This document shows, piece after piece, positions 1 to 11,722 of a stretch of 12,425 bases of DNA (position 1 is its first letter; each line of letters starts with the position of its first letter). Below the pieces are notes generated by a model. The model ran no database searches. It saw only the letters and a list, made by a program, of their open reading frames with translations, and was not told where the DNA came from. This stretch comes from Acidimicrobiales bacterium (lineage in GTDB: Bacteria > Actinomycetota > Acidimicrobiia > Acidimicrobiales > UBA8190), in the NCBI GenBank assembly GCA_030042575.1, contig JASHZK010000284.1, forward strand, positions 1-12,425, in the 5' to 3' direction. A program made the translations under genes and the position numbers.

Positions 1-549
1 GGCTTCACCGTCGACCAGGTGGTGTCGGCCGCCGGCAGCTCGCGCAAGAGCTTCTACCGCTGCTTCTCCTCCAAAGACGAGCTCCTGGTGGCCCTGTTCG
101 CCGACGACGCCCGGCGCGGGGCCCAGGCCCTCGACGCCATGGTGGCCCGCCGTCCCCCGGCCGAGCGCCTGCGGGCGGTGGTGGTGGGGCTGTTCCGGTT
201 CCTGAGCGCCGATGGCCGCCTGCCCTATGCGGCCGCCTTGGCCGGCGAGCACCTGCGCCTGGCCCAGTCGCGTCCGCAGGAGCTCGCCGCGGTACGCCGT
301 CCCTTCCTCGAGGTCTTCGAACGCGAGGTGGCCGGTGCCGCTCGGCGCGGCGAGATCCGGGGCGGCGACGTCGAGCACGATGCCCGCACGATGTTCCATC
401 TCGTGCTCTCGCACCTGCACGCCCTGGTGTGGCACCAGATCGAGGACGACCCCAAGGCGCTGTCCGAACAGCTGTGGGCCTTCTGCGCTGCGGCCCTGCG
501 TCCGGCGGTGCCGGGCATGGCGGTGAAGGCCGAGGCGGGGCGGCGATGA
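1..549 (+). CDS. TetR-family transcriptional regulator (5' partial)
   Basis: Reading frame 1 is open from the window edge to a TGA at 547-549, giving 182 residues with the true start upstream of the window. The first 33 residues are the second half of a TetR helix-turn-helix: TVDQVVSAAGSS, then the recognition-helix pattern SRKSFYRCFSSKDELL, which matches the family's 'aAGvs.gtlYryFpsKeeLl'. The remaining ~145 residues are a mostly helical, Arg/Ala/Leu-rich ligand-binding domain of ordinary TetR length. TetR proteins are dimeric repressors released by a small molecule, and in catabolic loci the ligand is often an acyl-CoA. The stop overlaps the next gene's ATG by 4 nt, so the regulator is probably co-transcribed with the amidohydrolases and ligase. 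I infer, but cannot show, that it binds the TGAY-N5-TGTCA sites in this window. Family assignment is firm; the ligand is unknown. Confidence 0.9.
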   Translation, partial: GFTVDQVVSAAGSSRKSFYRCFSSKDELLVALFADDARRGAQALDAMVARRPPAERLRAVVVGLFRFLSADGRLPYAAALAGEHLRLAQSRPQELAAVRRPFLEVFEREVAGAARRGEIRGGDVEHDARTMFHLVLSHLHALVWHQIEDDPKALSEQLWAFCAAALRPAVPGMAVKAEAGRR

Positions 550-4435: not shown

Positions 4436-4479
4436 GCGAAGCCTGACGGCAGTGTCGGCGAAGCCTGACGGCAGTGTCA
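4436..4479. repeat. Two tandem copies of a 22-bp unit, each carrying an operator-like palindrome
   Basis: Bases 4436-4456 and 4458-4478 are identical over 21 nt (GCGAAGCCTGACGGCAGTGTC), in tandem with a 22-bp period. The repeat begins directly after the ligase stop. Each copy contains TGACGGCAGTGTC; only the second continues into the complete palindrome. A 22-bp step is about two helical turns, which would place two bound dimers on the same DNA face (inference). Two copies without spacers are not a CRISPR. Confidence 0.85.
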
Positions 4480-4481
4480 GG
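4464..4481. promoter_or_regulatory. Putative TetR-type operator, site 1 (upstream of DUF35/thiolase genes)
   Basis: CCTGACGGCAGTGTCAGG is a perfect 6-bp inverted repeat with a 6-bp spacer. Its core, TGACGGCAGTGTCA, fits the TGAY-N5-TGTCA pattern also found upstream of the SDR and the third amidohydrolase. It lies about 20 bp before the candidate -10 at 4500, over the -35 region, a position suited to repression. A nearly complete copy ending in TGTCG is at 4444-4457. Binding by the local TetR protein is inference. Confidence 0.65.
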
Positions 4482-4499
4482 TTTCCGATCGAGCGCAGG

Positions 4500-4505
4500 T
4501 AGCAT
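4500..4505 (+). promoter_or_regulatory. Candidate -10 element for the DUF35/thiolase pair
   Basis: TAGCAT fits the actinobacterial TAnnnT -10. It ends 8 nt before the GTG of the DUF35 gene, which has no convincing Shine-Dalgarno sequence. Transcription would start at or next to the GTG, giving a leaderless or nearly leaderless mRNA. No good -35 is visible; that region is occupied by the operator-like palindrome. Confidence 0.5.
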
Positions 4506-4513
4506 GCGCCCTC

Positions 4514-4990
4514 GTGCATGGCGCCGCCGAGCCCGAGCTTGGTCGGCCGGGCCTCGGGCGCGGCCCGGCCGTTCGGGTGCTGCCCCGCCTGGACGACGCC
4601 AATCGGTTCTTCTGGACCTCCGGGGCCGACGGGGTCCTGCGGTTCCTGCGCTGCGACACCTGCCGCTGCTACGTGCACCCGCCGGGGCCGGTCTGTCCTT
4701 ATTGCCTGCGGGGCGAGCTGCTCCCGGAAGCGGTGAGCGGCAGGGGAACGTTGCACTCCTTCACGGTGAATTACCAGCCGTGGATCCCGGGGGACGGTCC
4801 CTATGCGATCGGCCTGGTCGCCATCGCCGAGCAGGACGACGTCAGGCTCATGACCAACGTGGTCGACTGCCCCGAACAGGCCCTCGAGGTCGAGATGGCC
4901 GTGGAGGTCACCTTCGAGCAGGTCGAGGACGTCTGGCTCCCTCTGTTCCGACCCGCCGGTCGCCCGCGGCCCACGGCCGCGGGCGCCTGA
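4514..4990 (+). CDS. DUF35 zinc-ribbon/OB-fold acyl-CoA-associated protein
   Basis: A 158-residue protein starting at GTG 4514. Residues 30-45 are the usual FFW...G.L.FLRC lead-in. The zinc ribbon CDTCRCYVHPPGPVCPYC follows, with ligands Cys47, Cys50, Cys61 and Cys64. An OB-fold runs from 'SGRGTLHSFTVNYQPW' through 'GPYAIGLVAI' to 'VTFEQVEDVWLPLFRP', typical of DUF35. DUF35 proteins partner thiolase-superfamily enzymes, notably the steroid side-chain aldolase Ltp2 and various acyl-CoA hydratases, and help shape the CoA/acyl site. The thiolase-like gene starts 8 nt after this stop, so a physical complex is likely. The N-terminal 20 residues are Gly/Arg-rich and unlike the family. The next in-frame GTG is at 4577, but the -10 position and the absence of an alternative signal favour 4514. 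Confidence 0.87.
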   Translation: MHGAAEPELGRPGLGRGPAVRVLPRLDDANRFFWTSGADGVLRFLRCDTCRCYVHPPGPVCPYCLRGELLPEAVSGRGTLHSFTVNYQPWIPGDGPYAIGLVAIAEQDDVRLMTNVVDCPEQALEVEMAVEVTFEQVEDVWLPLFRPAGRPRPTAAGA

Positions 4991-4998
4991 GGGCCATC

Positions 4999-6219
4999 GT
5001 GGCCGTCGACGTCCTCGAGCGGCGGGCCGTCATCTCCGGCATCGGCCAGTCCCAGGTGGGCCGGCGACTGGGACGAAGCGACCTCGACCTCACGGTGGAG
5101 GCGGCCTTGGCCGCCATCGCCGACGCCGGGCTCACCCGTGACGACATCGACGGGCTGGCCACCTATCCCGGCGGGGCCATGGGCGGGGGCCCTTTCGCCG
5201 GGCCCACGACCCCCGACGTCCAAGACACCCTACGGTTACGTCTCAATTGGCACGACGGCGGGGGCGAGGGGCCGGGACAGATCCGGGCCGTGTTCGCCGC
5301 CTGCCTGGCGGTGGCGGCCGGGTTGGCCCGCCACGTGCTCGTGTACCGCACGGTGACCGAGTCCACCGCCCAGGGCTCGGGCGGCCGGGTGGGGATCGGG
5401 CAGGCCATGGGCGCCGCTGGCGCCGGCCGCGGCGTCCCCCGCTTCGGAGGGTCGTTCCAGTGGATGCTCCCTTTCGGGGCGGTGTCAGCCGGCAACTGGC
5501 TGGCCCTCGTGGCCCGGCGCCGGATGCACGAGTTCGGCCTCACGCGCCACCAGCTGGCCTGGATCGCCCTCAACGGCCGGGCCAACGCGGCGCGCAACCC
5601 CAAAGCCGTCTACCGCCAGCCCATGACCATGGAGGACTATCTGTCGGTCCGCATGGTCTCGACCCCGCTGTGCCTCTACGACTGCGACGCCCCGTGCGAC
5701 GGATCCACCGCCGTGGTGGTCTCGCACCGCGACTACGCCGCCGACGCCCCCAGCCCGGCCTGCCACGTCAACGCCATCGGCACGGCGCTTCGGGGTCGCC
5801 CCAGCTGGGACCAGTTCGACGACATGACCACGATGGCGGCACGCGACGCGGCGGCCAGCATGTGGGGGCGCACCGACCTGCGCCCGCACGACGTGGACAC
5901 GGCCGATCTCTACGACGGCTTCAGCATCCTCACCATGGTGTGGCTGGAGGAGCTCGGCTTCTGCGAAAAAGGCGAGAGCGGCGCCTTCGTCGAGGGGGGG
6001 AAGAACATCGCCCTCGACGGGCCGCTCCCGCTCAACACCAGCGGCGGCCAGCTGTCCGGCGGGCGCCTACACGGCTTCGGCCTGCTCCACGAGGCGTGCC
6101 TGCAGCTGCGGGGGCAGGGCGGCGAGCGGCAGATCGCCAAGAGACCGGAGGTGGCCGTGGTGGCCAACGGCGGCGGGCCCATCGCCGGCAGCATGTTGCT
6201 CACGGCCGGCCGTGGTTGA
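4999..6219 (+). CDS. Thiolase-superfamily lipid-transfer-type protein, likely Ltp2-like aldolase
   Basis: A 406-residue protein. GTG 4999 is chosen because GAGGG (4989-4993) sits 5 nt upstream and the N-terminus VLERRAVISGIGQSQVGR is the normal thiolase start. The fold is SCP2/lipid-transfer thiolase: 'CDAPCDGSTAVVVSH' mid-protein, DTADLYDGFS (Tyr305), 'NTSGGQLSGGRLHG' and the C-terminal 'VVANGGGPIAGSMLL'. Aligned by eye, the position of the nucleophilic Cys falls in GGEGPGQ (residues 88-94), which has no Cys; Cys102 lies about 10 residues too late. The GHP motif reads GRL (Arg356), and the C-terminal Gly-rich loop has no Cys. Such a protein next to DUF35 matches Ltp2-type enzymes, which do retro-aldol cleavage of beta-hydroxyacyl-CoA side chains rather than thiolysis. 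The function is inferred; the thiolase fold is firm. Confidence 0.85.
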   Translation: MAVDVLERRAVISGIGQSQVGRRLGRSDLDLTVEAALAAIADAGLTRDDIDGLATYPGGAMGGGPFAGPTTPDVQDTLRLRLNWHDGGGEGPGQIRAVFAACLAVAAGLARHVLVYRTVTESTAQGSGGRVGIGQAMGAAGAGRGVPRFGGSFQWMLPFGAVSAGNWLALVARRRMHEFGLTRHQLAWIALNGRANAARNPKAVYRQPMTMEDYLSVRMVSTPLCLYDCDAPCDGSTAVVVSHRDYAADAPSPACHVNAIGTALRGRPSWDQFDDMTTMAARDAAASMWGRTDLRPHDVDTADLYDGFSILTMVWLEELGFCEKGESGAFVEGGKNIALDGPLPLNTSGGQLSGGRLHGFGLLHEACLQLRGQGGERQIAKRPEVAVVANGGGPIAGSMLLTAGRG

Positions 6220-6365
6220 CCCCGGCAGGGCGGCGGCCCGGCCTGCAGGCGGCGGGGCTCCTCCAGTTGACCGGGAGTTGATCTCGGGTTGGCCGGCTTC
6301 GGAGACAACGAGATCACTATGCGTGATGGGTTGTTCATGTGAAGTGAGTCGATAGGGGGCACCTC

Positions 6366-6710
6366 GTGACGATCCGAGCAAGAGGGCGGCGGTACGCCTT
6401 CGGGACCCTGGCCGGCCTGGGAGCTGCCGGGGGGGCCGCCGTGTTGACGGTCGTGCTCACGGCCGGGGCACCGGTTGCCGCTGCCCAGCACCACCCGTCT
6501 TCATCCCGCTCTTCTCGCTCGGTGCCGGTGGTGACCACCCACGTGAGCACGAGCGCCACCGCGCCCGCCCCCGCCGTGCCGGCTCCGGCGCCGGCCGCCG
6601 CCACCGCGCCGAGCACGGCTCCGCAGCCCGGCCAGGGTGTCCAGCCCGCCATCGGGGCCCCCGCCGGGAGCAACTCCTGGGACGACCCCTCGGCTTCCAC
6701 CTCCGGCTGA
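6366..6710 (+). CDS. Small secreted Ala/Pro/Ser/Thr-rich protein, unknown function
   Basis: A 114-residue ORF from GTG 6366, with AGGGGG (6354-6359) 6 nt upstream. The N-terminus has an Arg-rich start (TIRARGRRYAF), a hydrophobic stretch from about residue 13 to 32 and a likely cleavage region GAPVAAAQ near residue 40, so it looks like a Sec signal peptide. An uncleaved membrane anchor is possible. The rest is low complexity: Ser/His/Arg-rich (HHPSSSRSSRS), then Ala-Pro repeats (APAPAVPAPAPAAATAPSTAP), ending in SNSWDDPSASTSG. The Ala-Pro segment resembles flexible extracellular linkers. It has no domain I recognise and no Cys. It stands alone between the aldolase pair and the dehydrogenase, after 146 bp of non-coding DNA. 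Its link to the pathway is unclear. Confidence 0.65.
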   Translation: MTIRARGRRYAFGTLAGLGAAGGAAVLTVVLTAGAPVAAAQHHPSSSRSSRSVPVVTTHVSTSATAPAPAVPAPAPAAATAPSTAPQPGQGVQPAIGAPAGSNSWDDPSASTSG

Positions 6711-6773
6711 CCGGCCTCCACCGCCGAGGTCCGAGATCGGGCTTCGAGCCTCCGAGGAGTACGAGGACTCGAA

Positions 6774-6801
6774 CTGACGTCGAGGTCGTGAAAGCTACGC
6801 T
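6774..6801 (+). promoter_or_regulatory. Candidate promoter of the alpha-type acyl-CoA dehydrogenase
   Basis: CTGACG (6774-6779) is a -35-like element, followed by a 16-bp spacer and the -10 hexamer TACGCT (6796-6801). The GTG start at 6808 lies 6 nt after the -10, and no Shine-Dalgarno precedes it, so a leaderless transcript is expected. The overlapping sequence TGACGTCGAGGTCG is only a weak match to the operator motif found elsewhere in the window. Confidence 0.5.
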
Positions 6802-6807
6802 CCGGCC

Positions 6808-8007
6808 GTGCGGCTCCACTACGACGAGGAAACCGAGGCCTTCCGTTCGGAGCTGCGCTCCTTCTTCCAGGCGCATCTCCCCCCACCCGAGGAGCGCACC
6901 GAGCCGGTCCGGTCCTCCGCCCACATCCCGCAGTGGGCACGTGACTGGCAACGGCTGCTGTTCGACTCGGGTTGGCTCGTTCCCGGATGGCCGCCCGAGC
7001 TCGGGGGGCGAAACGCCACCCCGGTGCAGCAGATGGTCTACTTCGAGGAGCTCGTCAGACTGGAGGTGCCCCGCTCCTGCAACCCCCAGGGGCTCTCGAT
7101 CATCACCCCGTCCATCTTGGACTTCGGGACCGAGGCCCAAAAGCAGCGCTACGCCCTCGCCACCCTGAGGGCCGAGATCAGCTGGTGCCTCGGGATGAGC
7201 GAGCCCAACGCCGGGAGCGACCTCGCCGGGCTGCGCACCCAGGCCGAGCAGCGGGGCGACACCTTCGTGGTGAACGGGCAGAAGGTGTGGACGTCGGGGG
7301 CCCACGACGCCGACTTCTGCTTCTGCTTCGTGCGCACCGATCCGCAAGCCCCCAAGCACGCCGGCATCAGCGTGCTCATCGTCGACATGACGACCCCTGG
7401 GATCGAGACCCGGCCGCTCCCCGAGCTCACCGATCCCGACAACGCCGACTTCAACGAGGTGTTCTTCACCGACGTGGAGGTGCCGGCCGAGAACCTGGTG
7501 GGCGAGCTGCACCACGGGTGGTCCATCGCCGGCGGGTCGCTGGCCCACGAACGGGGGATGCTGTGGATCGCCGAGGCCACCGGGCTCGAGCGCATCCTCG
7601 AGCGAGTGTTGATCACAGCGACGACCCCGCTCCCCGGTGGGCGTCGCCTGGCCGACGACGTCCTGTTCCGCGACACGGTGGCCCGGGCCTACGTGCAGGC
7701 CCAGGCGGTCAAGCTGCTGGGCTATCGGGGTTTCGCCAAGGTGTCGAAGGGCGACAAGGCTCCCGAGCACTCGCTGCTCAAGCTGATGGGGAGCGAGCTT
7801 CGGCGCGGCCTGGCCCTGGAGGTGGGCGAAGCCATGGGCACAGCCGGTCTCGACGTCGACCGGGCCGACGCACCGGCCAACCGCCGCGACGACGAGGCCT
7901 GGTTCTTGCACTGGCTCCAGTCCTTCTCGAACACCATCGCCGGAGGGACCTCGGAGATCCAGCGCAACATCATCGCCGAGCGGATCCTGGGGCTCCCCCG
8001 CCGGTAG
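6808..8007 (+). CDS. Acyl-CoA dehydrogenase, catalytic (alpha-type) subunit
   Basis: A 399-residue flavoenzyme starting at GTG 6808. It introduces a C2-C3 double bond into an acyl-CoA. The family layout is complete: helical N-domain with GWPPELGG; the FAD/substrate beta-domain with WCLGMSEPNAGSDLAGL and VNGQKVWTSGAHDADF; and the C-terminal helical domain ending in NTIAGGTSEIQRN and IIAERILGLPR. The last motif has Gly where medium-chain enzymes carry the C-terminal catalytic Glu. The candidate base is Glu248 in SLAHERG, the position used by isovaleryl-CoA-type and FadE26-like alpha subunits. That pattern suggests an alpha-beta heterotetramer, with the convergent dehydrogenase at 8079-9209 as the obvious partner. 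The product of the ligase operon could be the substrate. Family certain; heteromer inferred. Confidence 0.92.
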   Translation: MRLHYDEETEAFRSELRSFFQAHLPPPEERTEPVRSSAHIPQWARDWQRLLFDSGWLVPGWPPELGGRNATPVQQMVYFEELVRLEVPRSCNPQGLSIITPSILDFGTEAQKQRYALATLRAEISWCLGMSEPNAGSDLAGLRTQAEQRGDTFVVNGQKVWTSGAHDADFCFCFVRTDPQAPKHAGISVLIVDMTTPGIETRPLPELTDPDNADFNEVFFTDVEVPAENLVGELHHGWSIAGGSLAHERGMLWIAEATGLERILERVLITATTPLPGGRRLADDVLFRDTVARAYVQAQAVKLLGYRGFAKVSKGDKAPEHSLLKLMGSELRRGLALEVGEAMGTAGLDVDRADAPANRRDDEAWFLHWLQSFSNTIAGGTSEIQRNIIAERILGLPRR

Positions 8008-8045
8008 GACGTCGTCGAACCTGGGCGGGGCTGCCCTTCGGGCCG

Positions 8046-8064
8046 GCGCCGGGGGGCCCGGCGC
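8046..8064. terminator. GC-rich hairpin between convergent genes, probable bidirectional terminator
   Basis: GCGCCGGG (8046-8053), loop GGG, CCCGGCGC (8057-8064): a perfect 8-bp stem. It lies in the 71-bp gap between two converging stop codons. A smaller stem, GCCC-TTC-GGGC (8033-8043), precedes it. No T-tract follows on either strand, as is common for terminators in high-GC Actinobacteria. Confidence 0.7.
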
Positions 8065-8078
8065 TCACCGCGAGCGTC

Positions 8079-9209
8079 TCACGGCAGGCCGAGATGGACC
8101 GCCAGCTCCCTGCGGTGCTCGGCCCCGGTACCGAACAGCGCCGCTTGGGCCTTCTGGCGCTTCACGTACAGGTGCATGTCGTGCTCCCAGGTGTAGCCGA
8201 TACCCCCCAGGCACTGGATCCCTTCGGTGGCCATGAGCTTCTGGCAGTCGCAGGTGGCCGACTTGGCCATCTCCACCGCCAGGCGGCGGCGCTCGTCGTC
8301 TTCGTCGATGGCGGCCGCGGCGAAGTAGGTGGTGGCCCGGGCTGCTTCGAGGGCCACGTACATGTTGGCCAGCTTGTGCTTGATGGCCTGGAAGGAGCCG
8401 ATCTTGACCCCGAACTGTTCGCGCTCTTTGACGTAGGCCAGGACGATGTCGAAGATGGCCTGGCTGGTGCCCACCGTCTCGGCGCACAGGGCGGCGGTGG
8501 CGCGCTGGACGACGCGCTCCAGGGCCGGCGCCATCTCGCCCGCCACACCCAGGGCCCGGCCGGCCTCCACCTCCACGTCGGCGAGCACCACGGTGGCCAG
8601 CTGGCGGGTGGCGTCGATGCTGTGGGCGGCGCGAACCTCGAGATCCGAAGCGGGTACCACGAAGAGGCCGATGCCGTCGGTGCCGGCCGTGCCCGGGAGG
8701 CGAGCGCTGACCACGATCTCCTCGGCTTTGGCCGCCTCGAGGACGTCGTGCTTCACCCCGTTGAGGCGCCAGCCCCCGCCCGGGGCGGGGCCCGCCGTCG
8801 TCTCGGTGTCGGCGACGGCGAAACGGCCGCCGGCTTCGGACACGGCCAGGGTTCCGACCTGTCCGGACAGCGCCGGGGTGACGAACCGCCGCCGTTGCTC
8901 GGCCGTGCCCGCCTCGGTCACCGCAGCGGCGAATTGGGTGGCGCTGGCCAGGAAAGGCACGGGAGCGAGCGCCCGGCCCAGCTCGTCGGCCACCACGCAG
9001 AGCTCCACTTGACCCAGGCCCAGGCCGCCGTCGGCTTCCGGCCAGGCCATGGCCGGCCAGTCGAGCGCCACCATGGCCGCCCACAGCTCGTCGGCTTCCT
9101 TGCCCTCCTCCACCACCCGGCGCACCAGCGCCATGGGGCATTCGGCGGCCAGGAACTGGCGAACCGAGTCGAGCAGCACCAGCTGCTCCCCGCTCAGCTC
9201 CAGGTCCAC
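8079..9209 (-). CDS. Acyl-CoA dehydrogenase-like protein, non-catalytic (beta-type) subunit
   Basis: A 376-residue protein starting at GTG (9207-9209), with AGAGGA about 7 nt upstream on the minus strand. The fold is acyl-CoA dehydrogenase: MDLELSGEQLVLLDSVRQFL, WPEADGGLGLG, then the C-terminal signatures REQFGVKIGSFQAIKHKLAN and GGIGYTWEHDMHLYVKR. Both known positions for the catalytic Glu lack it: the region aligned with HERG of the alpha-type enzyme reads QRATAAL, and the C-terminal position lies in LYVKRQ. This is the pattern of the beta subunits (FadE27/FadE29-like) of heterotetrameric steroid acyl-CoA dehydrogenases, which contribute FAD-site residues but not the base. The mid-domain is degenerate (AVSEAGGRF in place of the MTEPxxGSD-type motif). 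It sits 89 bp downstream of the SDR on the same strand and may share its transcript. Confidence 0.9.
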   Translation of the reverse strand: MDLELSGEQLVLLDSVRQFLAAECPMALVRRVVEEGKEADELWAAMVALDWPAMAWPEADGGLGLGQVELCVVADELGRALAPVPFLASATQFAAAVTEAGTAEQRRRFVTPALSGQVGTLAVSEAGGRFAVADTETTAGPAPGGGWRLNGVKHDVLEAAKAEEIVVSARLPGTAGTDGIGLFVVPASDLEVRAAHSIDATRQLATVVLADVEVEAGRALGVAGEMAPALERVVQRATAALCAETVGTSQAIFDIVLAYVKEREQFGVKIGSFQAIKHKLANMYVALEAARATTYFAAAAIDEDDERRRLAVEMAKSATCDCQKLMATEGIQCLGGIGYTWEHDMHLYVKRQKAQAALFGTGAEHRRELAVHLGLP

Positions 9210-9298
9210 GACGCTTCCTCTTGCTCCCGTTGCTCTCGGACTCCGGCCCTCACCTGACGCTCAGGCGCCGGCGCCGGGACTGACGCCGACCACGAGGG

Positions 9299-10225
9299 TC
9301 AGCCTCCCATCTGCAAGCCGGCGGCCCGCGAGCCGAAGATCTGGGCGTTGACAGCCGGGCCGATGTCGGCCGGCTCCCATCGGGCCGGTCCGCCTTTGGT
9401 CTCGATCGTCTGGCCCAAGGACCATGGGCGGTAGAGGGTGATGCGGTGGCCCACGGCCCGGAACACCTGACCGGTCACGTGCAGGGCCTCGTCCGAGGCC
9501 AACCAGGCCACCATGGGGGCGGAGTTGGCCGGGTTCATGTGGTCGTACTCGGCCTCCTCGAGCTGGTCGGGCTCCTTCACCTCGGCGTCCTTGCGCAAGG
9601 TGGCGGTGATGCGAGTCATGCCGCCGGGAGCCACGGCGTTGGCCCGTACCCCGTAACGGGCCAGCTCCAGGCTGGCGATGATGGTCATGGCCGCGATGCC
9701 GGCTTTGGCCGCTCCGTAGTTGGCCTGGCCCACGTTGCCTTGCAGTCCAGCCGAGGACACCGTGTTCACGATGGCGGCCTTGGGTTGACGGCCGGCCTTG
9801 GACTCGTCACGCCAATAGTTGGCGGCGTGGTGGGTCACGGCGAAGGTGCCTTTCAGATGCACCCGCACCACGGCGTCGAAGTCGTCCTCCGACATGGAGA
9901 AGATCATGGCGTCGCGTACGATGCCGGCGTTGTTGACCACGACGTCGAGCTTCCCGAACTCGGAGCGGGCCTGGTGGACCAGGTTCTCGGCCCCGGCCCA
10001 GTCGGCCACGTCGTCGTAGTTGGCGGCCGCCCGGCCACCTTTGGAGCGGATGACCTCCGCCACCTCTTCGGCCGGGCGCTTGTCGGCGCCTTGGCCGTGC
10101 ACCGAGCCGCCCACGTCGTTCACCACGACGGCCGCCCCCTGGCGAGCCAGTTCCAGGGCCTCGCCGCGGCCGATGCCGTGCCCGGCTCCGGTGACGACGG
10201 CCACCTTCCCTTCGAGCAGTCCCAT
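9299..10225 (-). CDS. SDR-family 3-hydroxyacyl-CoA dehydrogenase-like oxidoreductase
   Basis: A 308-residue classical-type SDR, longer than the usual ~250. Motifs: TGAGHGIG (residues 12-19) for the dinucleotide; NDVGG (Asp37) after strand 2, which favours NAD(H); NNAG (98-101); and the catalytic set Ser157/Ser158, Tyr170, Lys174 in NTVSSAG...NYGAAK. The extra C-terminal tail (about residues 265-308, 'PWSLGQTIETKGGPARWEPADIG') matches the MFE-2-like SDRs of actinobacterial lipid and steroid beta-oxidation, which oxidise 3-hydroxyacyl-CoA. The exact substrate is unknown. Upstream on the minus strand is a match to the shared operator motif. The Shine-Dalgarno before ATG 10225 is weak (GAGACACGAG). 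It is followed by the beta-type dehydrogenase. Confidence 0.9.
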   Translation of the reverse strand: MGLLEGKVAVVTGAGHGIGRGEALELARQGAAVVVNDVGGSVHGQGADKRPAEEVAEVIRSKGGRAAANYDDVADWAGAENLVHQARSEFGKLDVVVNNAGIVRDAMIFSMSEDDFDAVVRVHLKGTFAVTHHAANYWRDESKAGRQPKAAIVNTVSSAGLQGNVGQANYGAAKAGIAAMTIIASLELARYGVRANAVAPGGMTRITATLRKDAEVKEPDQLEEAEYDHMNPANSAPMVAWLASDEALHVTGQVFRAVGHRITLYRPWSLGQTIETKGGPARWEPADIGPAVNAQIFGSRAAGLQMGG

Positions 10226-10245
10226 CTCGTGTCTCGCTTTCTTTC

Positions 10246-10259
10246 TGATTCGACTGTCA
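10246..10259. promoter_or_regulatory. Putative operator, site 2 (upstream of the SDR gene)
   Basis: TGATTCGACTGTCA, 20 bp before the SDR start. It fits TGAY-N5-TGTCA and continues as TGTCAGCTT, nine bases shared exactly with site 3. The left half is TGAT rather than TGAC, so the palindrome is imperfect. No clear -10 or -35 could be placed around it. Confidence 0.5.
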
Positions 10260-10294
10260 GCTTCGCCAGGCGACGGCGGTCACGCCGGCCGTTC

Positions 10295-10310
10295 GACGGC
10301 CATGGCCGTC
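10295..10310. repeat. Perfect 16-bp palindrome GACGGCCATGGCCGTC
   Basis: The two 8-bp halves are exact reverse complements with no spacer. It lies in the 158-bp gap between the third amidohydrolase and the SDR. It could be a second protein-binding site or chance in G+C-rich DNA; having no loop, it is a poor terminator. It does not match the TGAY-N5-TGTCA motif. Confidence 0.5.
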
Positions 10311-10383
10311 CGGTGGACCCGTTCCCCGGAGCGCCGAGGACGACGGGAGGTCTCTGGGGCGGGCAGGACCTGCCGCTCCACGG

Positions 10384-11532
10384 TCAACCCAGCCGGTACA
10401 GCTCCTTGGCGTTGTCGCACACCATGCGCCGGCGCTCGTCCTGGGGCACGCCGCCCATGGACTCCTCCACCACCCGGCGGCTGTAGGGCCAGTCGTGGCG
10501 GTGGTGCGGATAGTCGGTGGACCACATCATGTTGTCCACCCCGATCCAGTGCCGGACGGCCACGGCGAAGGGCTCCCGGATGAACGTCGCCTTCCAGTTG
10601 CGGCGGAAGTACTCACTGGGCAGCAGCTTGAGCCGCGAGTTGGTCCAAGTGCGGTTGCGCCAATAGTGGTCGTCCATGTGTTCGAGGAAGTGCGGGATCC
10701 AACCTATGCCGCACTCCACTGCCACCATCTGCAGACCGGGAAAGTGGTCGTAGATGCCCGAATAGATGAACTTCGACATGAATTGCGAGGCGTCGCCCAC
10801 CGGCCCCCCCATCTCGGCCAGTCCGATCTGGCGACCGGCCGAAGCGGCTGCTTTCTTGAACGACCCCGCTTTGCGGGCTCCGGCCTGACGTAGGCCGCTG
10901 TGGATGTGGACGGGCATCTGTTCCTCTTCGGCCGCCTCCCAAAAGGGGTCGTCCTCAGCCGAGAGCTCGGCGTTGCCCGAGGGATAGGCGGAGATGATCA
11001 CGCCCCGGTAGCCGGCGCTCTTGGCGTCGCGCAGCCACTTCACAGAAGTCTGCACGTCCACGCCCGGCATCTGGGCCAGTCCGATCAGGCGCGCCGGGTC
11101 CACAGCCATGAACTCGTCGTGCATCCAGGTGTTGTACGCCTCCAACCCGGCCAGGTGGTAGTCGTCGTCCTCCTGGGCCATGAAGGCACCCATGGTGCGC
11201 TGCGAGGGAAAGAGCACCTCGGCGTCCACGCCGTCGAAGTCCTGTTCCTCGAGGCGGGCCTTGCCCTCGAAGGAGCCGTGCAGGATCGCGTCGTAGGTGG
11301 AGCCGTACCACTCGAGCTCTTCGTAACGCTTGCCGTACTTGCCGGCATTGGTCACCAACCCGAGCGGCATGGGAGAGGTGCCCGGCACCAGTTCCCAGGC
11401 GTCACCACCCTTGGGGTCCTTCACCAGCTTGGGCGCCCGTTCGTGGAATTTCGCGGGCAGGTACTTGGTCCACATGTCGGGGGGCTCGACCACGTGGCCG
11501 TCCGCCGAGATGAGCTGGTACTGGCGCGCCAT
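10384..11532 (-). CDS. PF04909 (amidohydrolase_2) metal-dependent hydrolase/decarboxylase, copy 3
   Basis: A 382-residue protein. The ATG ending at 11532 is preferred to the in-frame GTG one codon earlier, because AGGAGG (11537-11542) lies 4 nt before the ATG but only 1 nt before the GTG. Motifs: LISADGHVVEPPDMW (D11, H13), PVHIHSG, VECGIGWIPHFLEHMDDHYWR and WSTDYPHHRHDWP. The layout matches the two paralogues at 546-2884, but the sequence is diverged, nearer the common 'ADGHVVEPPDMW' actinobacterial type. Members of the superfamily include ACMSD, gamma-resorcylate decarboxylase and dicarboxylate lactonases. This copy has its own promoter region, with a match to the shared operator motif about 60 bp upstream, so it may be co-regulated with the others. 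Substrate unknown. Confidence 0.9.
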   Translation of the reverse strand: MARQYQLISADGHVVEPPDMWTKYLPAKFHERAPKLVKDPKGGDAWELVPGTSPMPLGLVTNAGKYGKRYEELEWYGSTYDAILHGSFEGKARLEEQDFDGVDAEVLFPSQRTMGAFMAQEDDDYHLAGLEAYNTWMHDEFMAVDPARLIGLAQMPGVDVQTSVKWLRDAKSAGYRGVIISAYPSGNAELSAEDDPFWEAAEEEQMPVHIHSGLRQAGARKAGSFKKAAASAGRQIGLAEMGGPVGDASQFMSKFIYSGIYDHFPGLQMVAVECGIGWIPHFLEHMDDHYWRNRTWTNSRLKLLPSEYFRRNWKATFIREPFAVAVRHWIGVDNMMWSTDYPHHRHDWPYSRRVVEESMGGVPQDERRRMVCDNAKELYRLG

Positions 11533-11536
11533 CACA

Positions 11537-11542
11537 CCTCCT
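11537..11542 (-). promoter_or_regulatory. Ribosome binding site AGGAGG that decides the amidohydrolase 3 start
   Basis: On the minus strand AGGAGG-TGTG-ATG places the consensus Shine-Dalgarno 4 nt before the ATG, and the alternative GTG is too close. It is the fullest ribosome binding site in the window. Confidence 0.8.
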
Positions 11543-11593
11543 CGGGCCGCCCGGCGGCGGCCGGATCCGGTGCCGCCAGGCCCCGGAGTTCTA

Positions 11594-11607
11594 TGACTTC
11601 CGTGTCA
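11594..11607. promoter_or_regulatory. Putative operator, site 3 (upstream of amidohydrolase 3)
   Basis: TGACTTCCGTGTCA is a TGAC/GTCA inverted repeat with a 6-bp spacer, the same geometry as site 1. The flank TGTCAGCTT is shared with site 2. On the minus strand the bases just after it read TAGAAC, a partial -10 match, so the site may lie between -35 and -10. The gene starts about 60 bp further on. Confidence 0.6.
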
Positions 11608-11722
11608 GCTTACTTGGGGTTCGGGGCCGTGCAGAAATGCGGCCGCCTGCCGCAAACCGCCTGCTCTTGCCGCAATAACCGCTGGTGGCGTCCCCACCGG
11701 GAACGGTTCCGGCCGCCCGGCT

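Follow-up and report, generated by a model that had tools for sequence, protein, structure and literature searches.

Probable operators of a TetR-family catabolic regulon in Acidimicrobiales: the CTGAC palindromes and their predicted regulator c27

KstR and KstR2, the TetR repressors of mycobacterial cholesterol catabolism, act through a short palindromic operator that recurs in several promoters, and an excerpt of PMC3068626 gives the KstR2 operator as AnCAAGnnCTTGnT, a motif derived from the promoters of kstR2 orthologs. According to an excerpt of PMC3920632, BkaR (Rv2506), the branched-chain keto-acid repressor, is an autoregulated TetR protein with a palindromic operator whose core is GTTA(N)T(N4)A(N)TAAC. 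Mce3R, a double TetR protein of M. tuberculosis with a lipid/cholesterol-linked regulon, binds a nonpalindromic operator, as stated in an excerpt of PMC11667970. Here, a window of 12,425 bases from an Acidimicrobiales bacterium was analyzed, which is the entire contig C26 of a fragmented genome (2.39 Mb, 58.85 % complete) and carries copies of the palindrome CTGAC-N6-GTCAG. Like the operators of KstR and KstR2, the sites are short palindromes in several promoters, but their sequence is unrelated to that of KstR2, and the locus does not qualify for the KstR2 regulon as the excerpt describes it. BkaR likewise shares a palindromic operator with this system and differs in its operator core. From the sequence comparisons set out below, we consider it probable that the CTGAC sites are operators of a genome-wide catabolic regulon under c27, a single-domain TetR-family repressor encoded elsewhere in the genome.

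The first-pass annotation of the window had reported three copies of a 14-bp motif, TGAYNNNNNTGTCA, with no further match, more than expected by chance and all in non-coding gaps, and these statements held. Exactly three matches were present on the two strands (4466-4479, 10246-10259, and 11594-11607), compared with a mean of 0.07 in 200 dinucleotide-preserving shuffles of the window, none of which reached three. The gene coordinates placed site 1 between a FadD-like gene (end 4434) and a DUF35 gene (start 4514), site 2 between the stop of an amidohydrolase gene (10384) and the start of a short-chain dehydrogenase (SDR) gene (10225, minus strand), and site 3 upstream of the amidohydrolase gene, whose start (11535, minus strand) is 59 nt away. 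A symmetric palindrome, CTGAC-N6-GTCAG, describes the sites better than the 14-bp motif; R-Y is preferred inside it and W-A outside. A matrix of 72 sites from other genomes gave the consensus wAcCTGAC-RYnnRY-GTCAGgTw, in which the core columns are invariant by construction, since each training site was an exact CTGACN6GTCAG; the inner R/Y and outer W-A preferences sit in columns that were not used for site selection. The training loci included 40 motif-selected loci (L120-L159) as well as amidohydrolase/TetR loci. When this matrix, trained on other genomes only, was applied to the window, the top five places all fell in gaps (15 % of the window). Their start positions and scores were 4461 (24.4), 11589 (18.9), 10241 (15.6), 4439 (15.5), and 6770 (9.1), while in 200 Markov-chain windows the best score was 8.7 at the median, 14.5 at the 95th percentile, and 21.7 at most. 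By itself, the site at 6770-6793 is not significant against the Markov-chain windows. A chance origin is contradicted for sites 1 and 3; site 2 alone may be a chance match. The features of the window are as follows.

4461..4484: operator 1, palindrome CTGACGGCAGTGTCAG with its centre some 41 nt ahead of the DUF35 start; matrix score 24.4, the best of the window
4439..4462: tandem degenerate copy of operator 1, CTGACGGCAGTGTCGG; score 15.5
4500..4505, plus strand: putative -10 element TAGCAT (TANNNT), 8 nt before the GTG start at 4514
4514..6219, plus strand: DUF35/ChsH2-C-like gene (4514-4990) and thiolase-like gene (4999-6219), presumed operon of operator 1
6770..6793: decayed operator CTGACGTCGAGGTCGT, upstream of the acyl-CoA dehydrogenase gene 6808-8007; score 9.1
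6808..8007, plus strand: acyl-CoA dehydrogenase (ACAD), presumed target
9299..10225, minus strand: SDR, downstream of site 2
10241..10264: site 2, CTGATTCGACTGTCAG, before the SDR gene; score 15.6
10384..11535, minus strand: amidohydrolase (Amidohydro_2), presumed first gene of operator 3
11589..11612: operator 3, ATGACTTCCGTGTCAG on the plus strand; score 18.9
1..549, plus strand: TetR-family protein, continued 5' on contig C188; unlikely to regulate the CTGAC sites

The presence of the motif was compared with that of c27, a protein cluster found among the proteins near sites in the motif-rich genomes G109, G087, and G001. Stringent sites, defined as CTGACRYNNRYGTCAG, were counted in 119 genomes of the order, and a genome was classed as strong for c27 at a best E below 1e-40 (24 genomes) and as intermediate at 2e-26 to 3e-38 (6 genomes). 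The strong genomes held 100 stringent sites versus 0 in the control, the intermediate ones 23 versus 1, the 88 genomes without c27 22 versus 10, and the genome of the window 1 versus 0. At least one stringent site occurred in 23 of the 24 strong genomes, and at least two in 23 of the 30 c27 genomes compared with 4 of the 88 others (Fisher p 1.5e-14, not corrected for phylogeny). Within the family of the window (f1), eight genomes with c27 had 4-9 stringent sites each and eight without it had 0-1. Moreover, the 14 genomes with the greatest excess of the loose motif all carried c27 at E < 1e-36. A phylum-wide sample contained c27 (E <= 1e-22) in 16 of 396 genomes. Outside the order, ten genomes with weaker c27 homologs had 37 loose sites versus 12 in the control, divided into 17 versus 3 in five f76 genomes and 20 versus 9 in five f75 genomes; the cores of several f75 sites differ.

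The c27 genes are also linked to the sites. In 6 of 30 loci the c27 domain has a site at most 250 bp upstream, and a site lies directly before c27 in G087, G109, G041, G076, and G103, with two matrix sites upstream of the G109 copy. Eight neighbourhoods share an operon type, ACAD-ECH-CaiB-(ADH)-c27 (ECH, enoyl-CoA hydratase), with c27 as the last gene, and a site was found at the promoter heading the operon in seven of them (not L190) and also in G001; the gene calls of the c27 operon are incomplete in L194, L195, and L197. The c27 genes of G084 and G062 stand behind a FadD-like gene, and a site heads the shared operon. Many c27 genomes have a site in the promoter of c27 or at the head of its operon, and several loci have neither. 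Among the 41, 25, and 26 TetR genes found in G109, G087, and G001, respectively, only one c27 copy (G087) and one unrelated TetR gene (G001) lay within about 200 bp of an exact site.

The placement of the sites was then measured in three sets of loci at a matrix score above 14, with the reversed sequence as control. The c27 neighbourhoods (293,771 bases), which were chosen without regard to the motif and lie almost wholly outside the matrix training set, contained 35 sites versus 0 in the reversed sequence. The amidohydrolase/TetR neighbourhoods (231,747 bases) contained 28 versus 0; they are partly matrix-training loci, and two of the 28 sites were counted twice because L055 and L065 are the same contig. 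The motif-selected loci (421,800 bases) contained 77 versus 0. Strictly intergenic sites numbered 12/35, 23/28, and 42/77, respectively, compared with 0.10-0.11 of random positions (0.11 for the amidohydrolase/TetR set), and 11, 3, and 12 sites lay deep inside called genes, compared with 0.70-0.71 of random positions. A called start was within 150 nt of 25/34, 24/28, and 66/77 sites. Since the gene calls use the first possible start and sometimes the wrong frame, some of the sites counted within genes probably precede them. Of the 136 distinct sites over the three sets, 24 had no called gene start in reach.

The genes following the sites supported the expected enrichment in acyl-CoA and amidohydrolase functions. 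A Pfam scan covered 73 of 169 downstream genes, taken from loci not chosen for the motif (one of 74, L054:3533-4942, was excluded), and identified 14 AMP-binding proteins, 12 acyl-CoA dehydrogenases, 7 Amidohydro_2, 5 ECH, 4 FGGY, 4 DUF35/ChsH2, 4 2-hydroxyacid dehydrogenases, 3 thiolases (PF00108), 3 SDRs, 3 TetR_N (all c27 copies), and 2 P450s. By this annotation the site-linked genes would serve mostly CoA-thioester catabolism. From the ChsH2-like, amidohydrolase, and P450 genes we would guess at a sterol, terpenoid, or branched-chain substrate. The earlier idea of a regulon operator before such genes was supported, but not its local extent: the sites are genome-wide and order-wide. The genome of the window held 13 places (14 strand hits) of the exact 14-bp pattern versus 2 in the reversed control, and 35 places of the looser symmetric TGACN6GTCA versus 13. 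Seven of the 35 scored at least 18, and two of these were window sites. Among the others, L238 lies 74 nt before a thiolase gene and L005 32 nt before an FAD oxidoreductase gene, while L008, L012, and L013 overlap the first part of a called frame. The L008 frame encodes an acyl-CoA dehydrogenase, and a long frame with a MerR domain overlaps that site too; L012 is between a 2-hydroxyacid dehydrogenase and an FGGY kinase, and the L013 frame has no Pfam match.

Conservation was evaluated at orthologous loci of the amidohydrolase and TetR genes, which were not chosen for the motif. The palindrome was present upstream of the amidohydrolase in 8 of 11 loci and absent in three more distant ones (L060-L062, 63-70 % identity). 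Several relatives also carry it before DUF35/thiolase, acyl-CoA dehydrogenase, and a neighbouring ECH/DUF35 pair. In nine aligned amidohydrolase promoters (the window and eight relatives), the operator was the main conserved block besides the ribosome-binding site and the start; the alignments A1, A3, and A4 comprise only loci with a site, plus the window. Conservation in relatives holds for site 1 (DUF35/thiolase) and site 3 (amidohydrolase). Site 2 had no counterpart before the SDR gene in four of four relatives examined, so it was rejected as a conserved operator and stays as a sequence match. The acyl-CoA dehydrogenase promoter has an intact site in six aligned relatives, which were selected for having one, and the window copy is decayed. 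At 4439-4484, operator 1 is the right-hand copy of a 22-bp tandem duplication, and the right half of the left copy has decayed.

In the DUF35 and acyl-CoA dehydrogenase promoters, an invariant TANNNT-type element follows the operator at a variable short distance. The T, A, and last T of TAGCAT are invariant in seven aligned DUF35 promoters. In the window, the GTG start comes 8 nt (DUF35) or 6 nt (acyl-CoA dehydrogenase) after this element; GTG is invariant in seven aligned dehydrogenase promoters, and GTG or ATG is found in five of the seven DUF35 promoters. This layout suggests a -10 element followed by a leaderless start. In the amidohydrolase promoter, an invariant TAnnCT, a possible -10, overlaps operator 3 (conserved in eight relatives). 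RNA polymerase would be blocked by a protein on the operator, which makes repression the natural interpretation.

Two observations were made beside these loci. An alanine/proline-rich small open reading frame lies between the thiolase and acyl-CoA dehydrogenase genes (6366-6710), where the gap is shorter in several relatives, and is perhaps an insertion or a gene for a secreted protein. Furthermore, L061 (in a record titled Bifidobacterium breve) and L053 (Acidobacteriota) contain relatives of the Acidimicrobiales catabolic genes, with amidohydrolase identities of 69 and 92 %, respectively; these records are probably misnamed or misbinned metagenome-assembled genomes.

The c27 protein contains one TetR_N stretch (PF00440, 64.7 bits against a cut-off of 24). 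In 16 aligned sequences, SHGTFYLY in the helix-turn-helix (HTH) region is invariant, which a constant operator would lead one to expect. For the G002 copy, AlphaFold2 gave a model (mean pLDDT 89.4) with eight helices and no strand, and by these helices the modelled, all-helical fold looks like a TetR. The closest solved relatives of a 16-sequence profile include EthR (3qpl, E 9.2e-19), YvdT (2f07, 4e-18), 5gpa (2.3e-16), and a fatty acid metabolism regulator (3whb, 2.6e-15). The EthR and FadR-like structures among them would be compatible with a hydrophobic or acyl-CoA ligand. A large protein set contained 3,230 homologs at E <= 1e-15, and the best 120 of them had generic TetR/AcrR or helix-turn-helix names, or none. 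The bit scores of c27 fell far below the NCBIfam cut-offs of KstR (25.9 against 280, NF033703), Bacillus FadR (51.4 against 200), FasR (45.2 against 330), and MftR (37.6 against 224.9). By analogy, regulon control would work as with a KstR-type catabolic repressor, although c27 itself is not a KstR, FadR, FasR, or MftR member. Mce3R was the third-best PDB match of a single c27 query (E 5.4e-11, N-terminal unit); as described in the excerpt cited above, it differs in having two TetR units and a nonpalindromic operator, compared with one unit in c27 and palindromic operators here. A double-TetR, Mce3R-like gene with two TetR_N stretches was seen in G116, where a CTGACGTCCGTGTCAG site (L254, G116:C56, 1501-1516) lies about 105 bp upstream of the first HTH domain and overlaps the over-long start of the called frame. 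Term searches of the open-licence PMC literature returned no description of the CTGAC-N6-GTCAG motif.

In the genome of the window, which is 58.85 % complete, no gene for c27 was found (best E 1.1e-15). Contig C346 of this genome carries an FGGY kinase gene, 74 % identical to one beside c27 in G002, and then a small gene that is adjacent to c27 in 7 of the 8 relatives' neighbourhoods searched. At the contig end, on the opposite strand and convergent to the small gene, the codons read RGLFSGS-stop, which resembles the c27 C-terminus (HRALFAG-stop in G002; other copies have longer tails). These seven residues alone are weak; together with the gene order they are good evidence of an own c27 gene cut by the contig end.

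Several points weigh against c27 as the regulator. The co-occurrence of c27 and motif reflects in part phylogeny and gene content, the cut-offs for it were chosen with the data already in view, and it is not independent, since c27 was discovered in motif-rich genomes. G041, G049, G080, and G098 are strong for c27 and have 0-1 stringent sites, while at least two stringent sites occur without c27 in G026, G043, G074, and G092. An excess of at least five loose-pattern sites without c27 was found in G012, G015, G018, G029, G031, and G057, each with only 0-1 stringent sites. There was no site within 250 bp upstream of the c27 domain in 24 of 30 loci and none seen at the c27 operon head in L190, L198, and L203. 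The regulator survey comprised TetR genes in three genomes at exact sites, with a matrix scan for c27 only. In G001, a non-c27 TetR gene (C80:16417-16557) has CTGACAGGTCAGTCAG just upstream (C80:16684-16699), which has an atypical core and may be the operator of another TetR. G092 was discounted as a counter-example, because three of its six sites were attributed to short dispersed repeats. At the G092 loci L249, L252, and L255, such repeats consist of CTGACACTGGTGTCAG / GACACGAGTGTC units near gene borders.

The TetR protein encoded at 1-549, which the first-pass annotation had named as the candidate regulator, is the regulator gene nearest to the sites and stands amid related catabolic genes. 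Furthermore, the nine genomes with a clear ortholog, among 60 searched (a set without G109, G087, and G061), all have 10-19 loose motif sites each. It is nevertheless very improbable that this protein binds the CTGAC sites. Contig C188, which overlaps window positions 1-471 (471 bases, 6 differences), supplies the region upstream of the gene, and the gap there holds no CTGAC palindrome. It holds instead GGAGAACGGTGTTCTCC (C188:5388-5404, L064, outside the window), one base off a different palindrome, GGAGAAYGNCGTTCTCC, that stands beside the TetR gene in 9 of 10 ortholog loci, the tenth being cut by the contig end, and adjoins GATGATAGTTT in most of them. Exact GGAGAAYGNCGTTCTCC occurred once each in 10 of the 60 genomes, namely the nine with a clear ortholog, always adjoining it, and G043. 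In the window it is absent, the single match with three mismatches being inside a gene. This TetR therefore most likely regulates its own promoter region, and it is very probably not the regulator of the CTGAC sites. Moreover, two motif-rich genomes, G007 and G024, match it only weakly (E 1.6e-10 and 7.3e-6), and G007, with 20 loose sites versus 3 in the control, carries c27. The protein was rejected as the regulator for its own palindrome, the gap lacking the CTGAC palindrome, and the motif-rich genomes lacking a clear ortholog; with GGAGAAYGNCGTTCTCC it forms a second predicted TetR-operator pair. In G001, G002, and G014, c27 lies about 14-19 kb from the ortholog of this TetR. The six differences between C188 and the window leave the protein unchanged, and the overlap perhaps reflects a strain mixture in the assembly.

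A different regulator, such as a TetR paralog or a CRP-like, GntR, or other protein, might read the palindrome, with c27 as a target or genomic companion. The many c27 loci without a site at the promoter would fit this, the systematic regulator survey covered TetR genes only, and a LuxR-type response regulator gene adjoins one site in G001 (L142). The spacing pentamer-N6-pentamer also resembles that of CRP-family sites. We regard this explanation as unlikely, though as the most serious of the alternatives, since the stringent motif counts track the presence of c27. TetR_N was also the sole regulator family among the 25 commonest Pfam families of the 73 site-adjacent genes, a tally in which 18 rarer families fell outside the top 25 and whose loci include neighbourhoods chosen for c27. 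It is scarcely credible that the three sites match by chance or are promoter elements that no dedicated regulator reads. In favour of this view, conservation is lacking for site 2, and of the 28 loose matches with lower scores in the genome of the window, 20 overlap called reading frames. Against this, the sites are conserved at orthologous promoters, the palindromic preferences extend to columns outside the selection, and the reversed controls were empty in all three locus sets; chance was rejected on these controls and on the expectation in the shuffles.

If c27 is the regulator, a dimer of it would occupy wAcCTGACRYnnRYGTCAGgTw, covering the -35/-10 region of CoA-thioester catabolism operons, which encode acyl-CoA ligases, acyl-CoA dehydrogenases, hydratases, thiolases/DUF35, amidohydrolases, and SDRs. 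Bound c27 would exclude RNA polymerase until released by an intermediate of the pathway, for which an acyl-CoA is the likeliest candidate. In many genomes, c27 would also control its own gene, either directly or as the last gene of a site-headed operon.

More tentatively, and with somewhat less than even confidence, c27 could be an order-specific master regulator of CoA-thioester catabolism in Acidimicrobiales, in the role of KstR/KstR2 with an independently evolved DNA code, and the fused double TetR of G116 could read the same palindrome in some lineages. If this were true, the G116 protein would be a natural bridge from palindrome-binding TetRs to the asymmetric Mce3R. The system would be a new instance of a well-known type of control, not a new mechanism, and c27 with its palindrome is a DNA-protein pair open to direct testing, to which the window TetR with its own palindrome adds a second predicted pair. 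Most Acidimicrobiales have not been cultured, and the many paralogous acyl-CoA genes that they carry have roles that are hard to separate by sequence. The predicted operator and predicted regulator would group such paralogs into one regulon and mark genes that act together.

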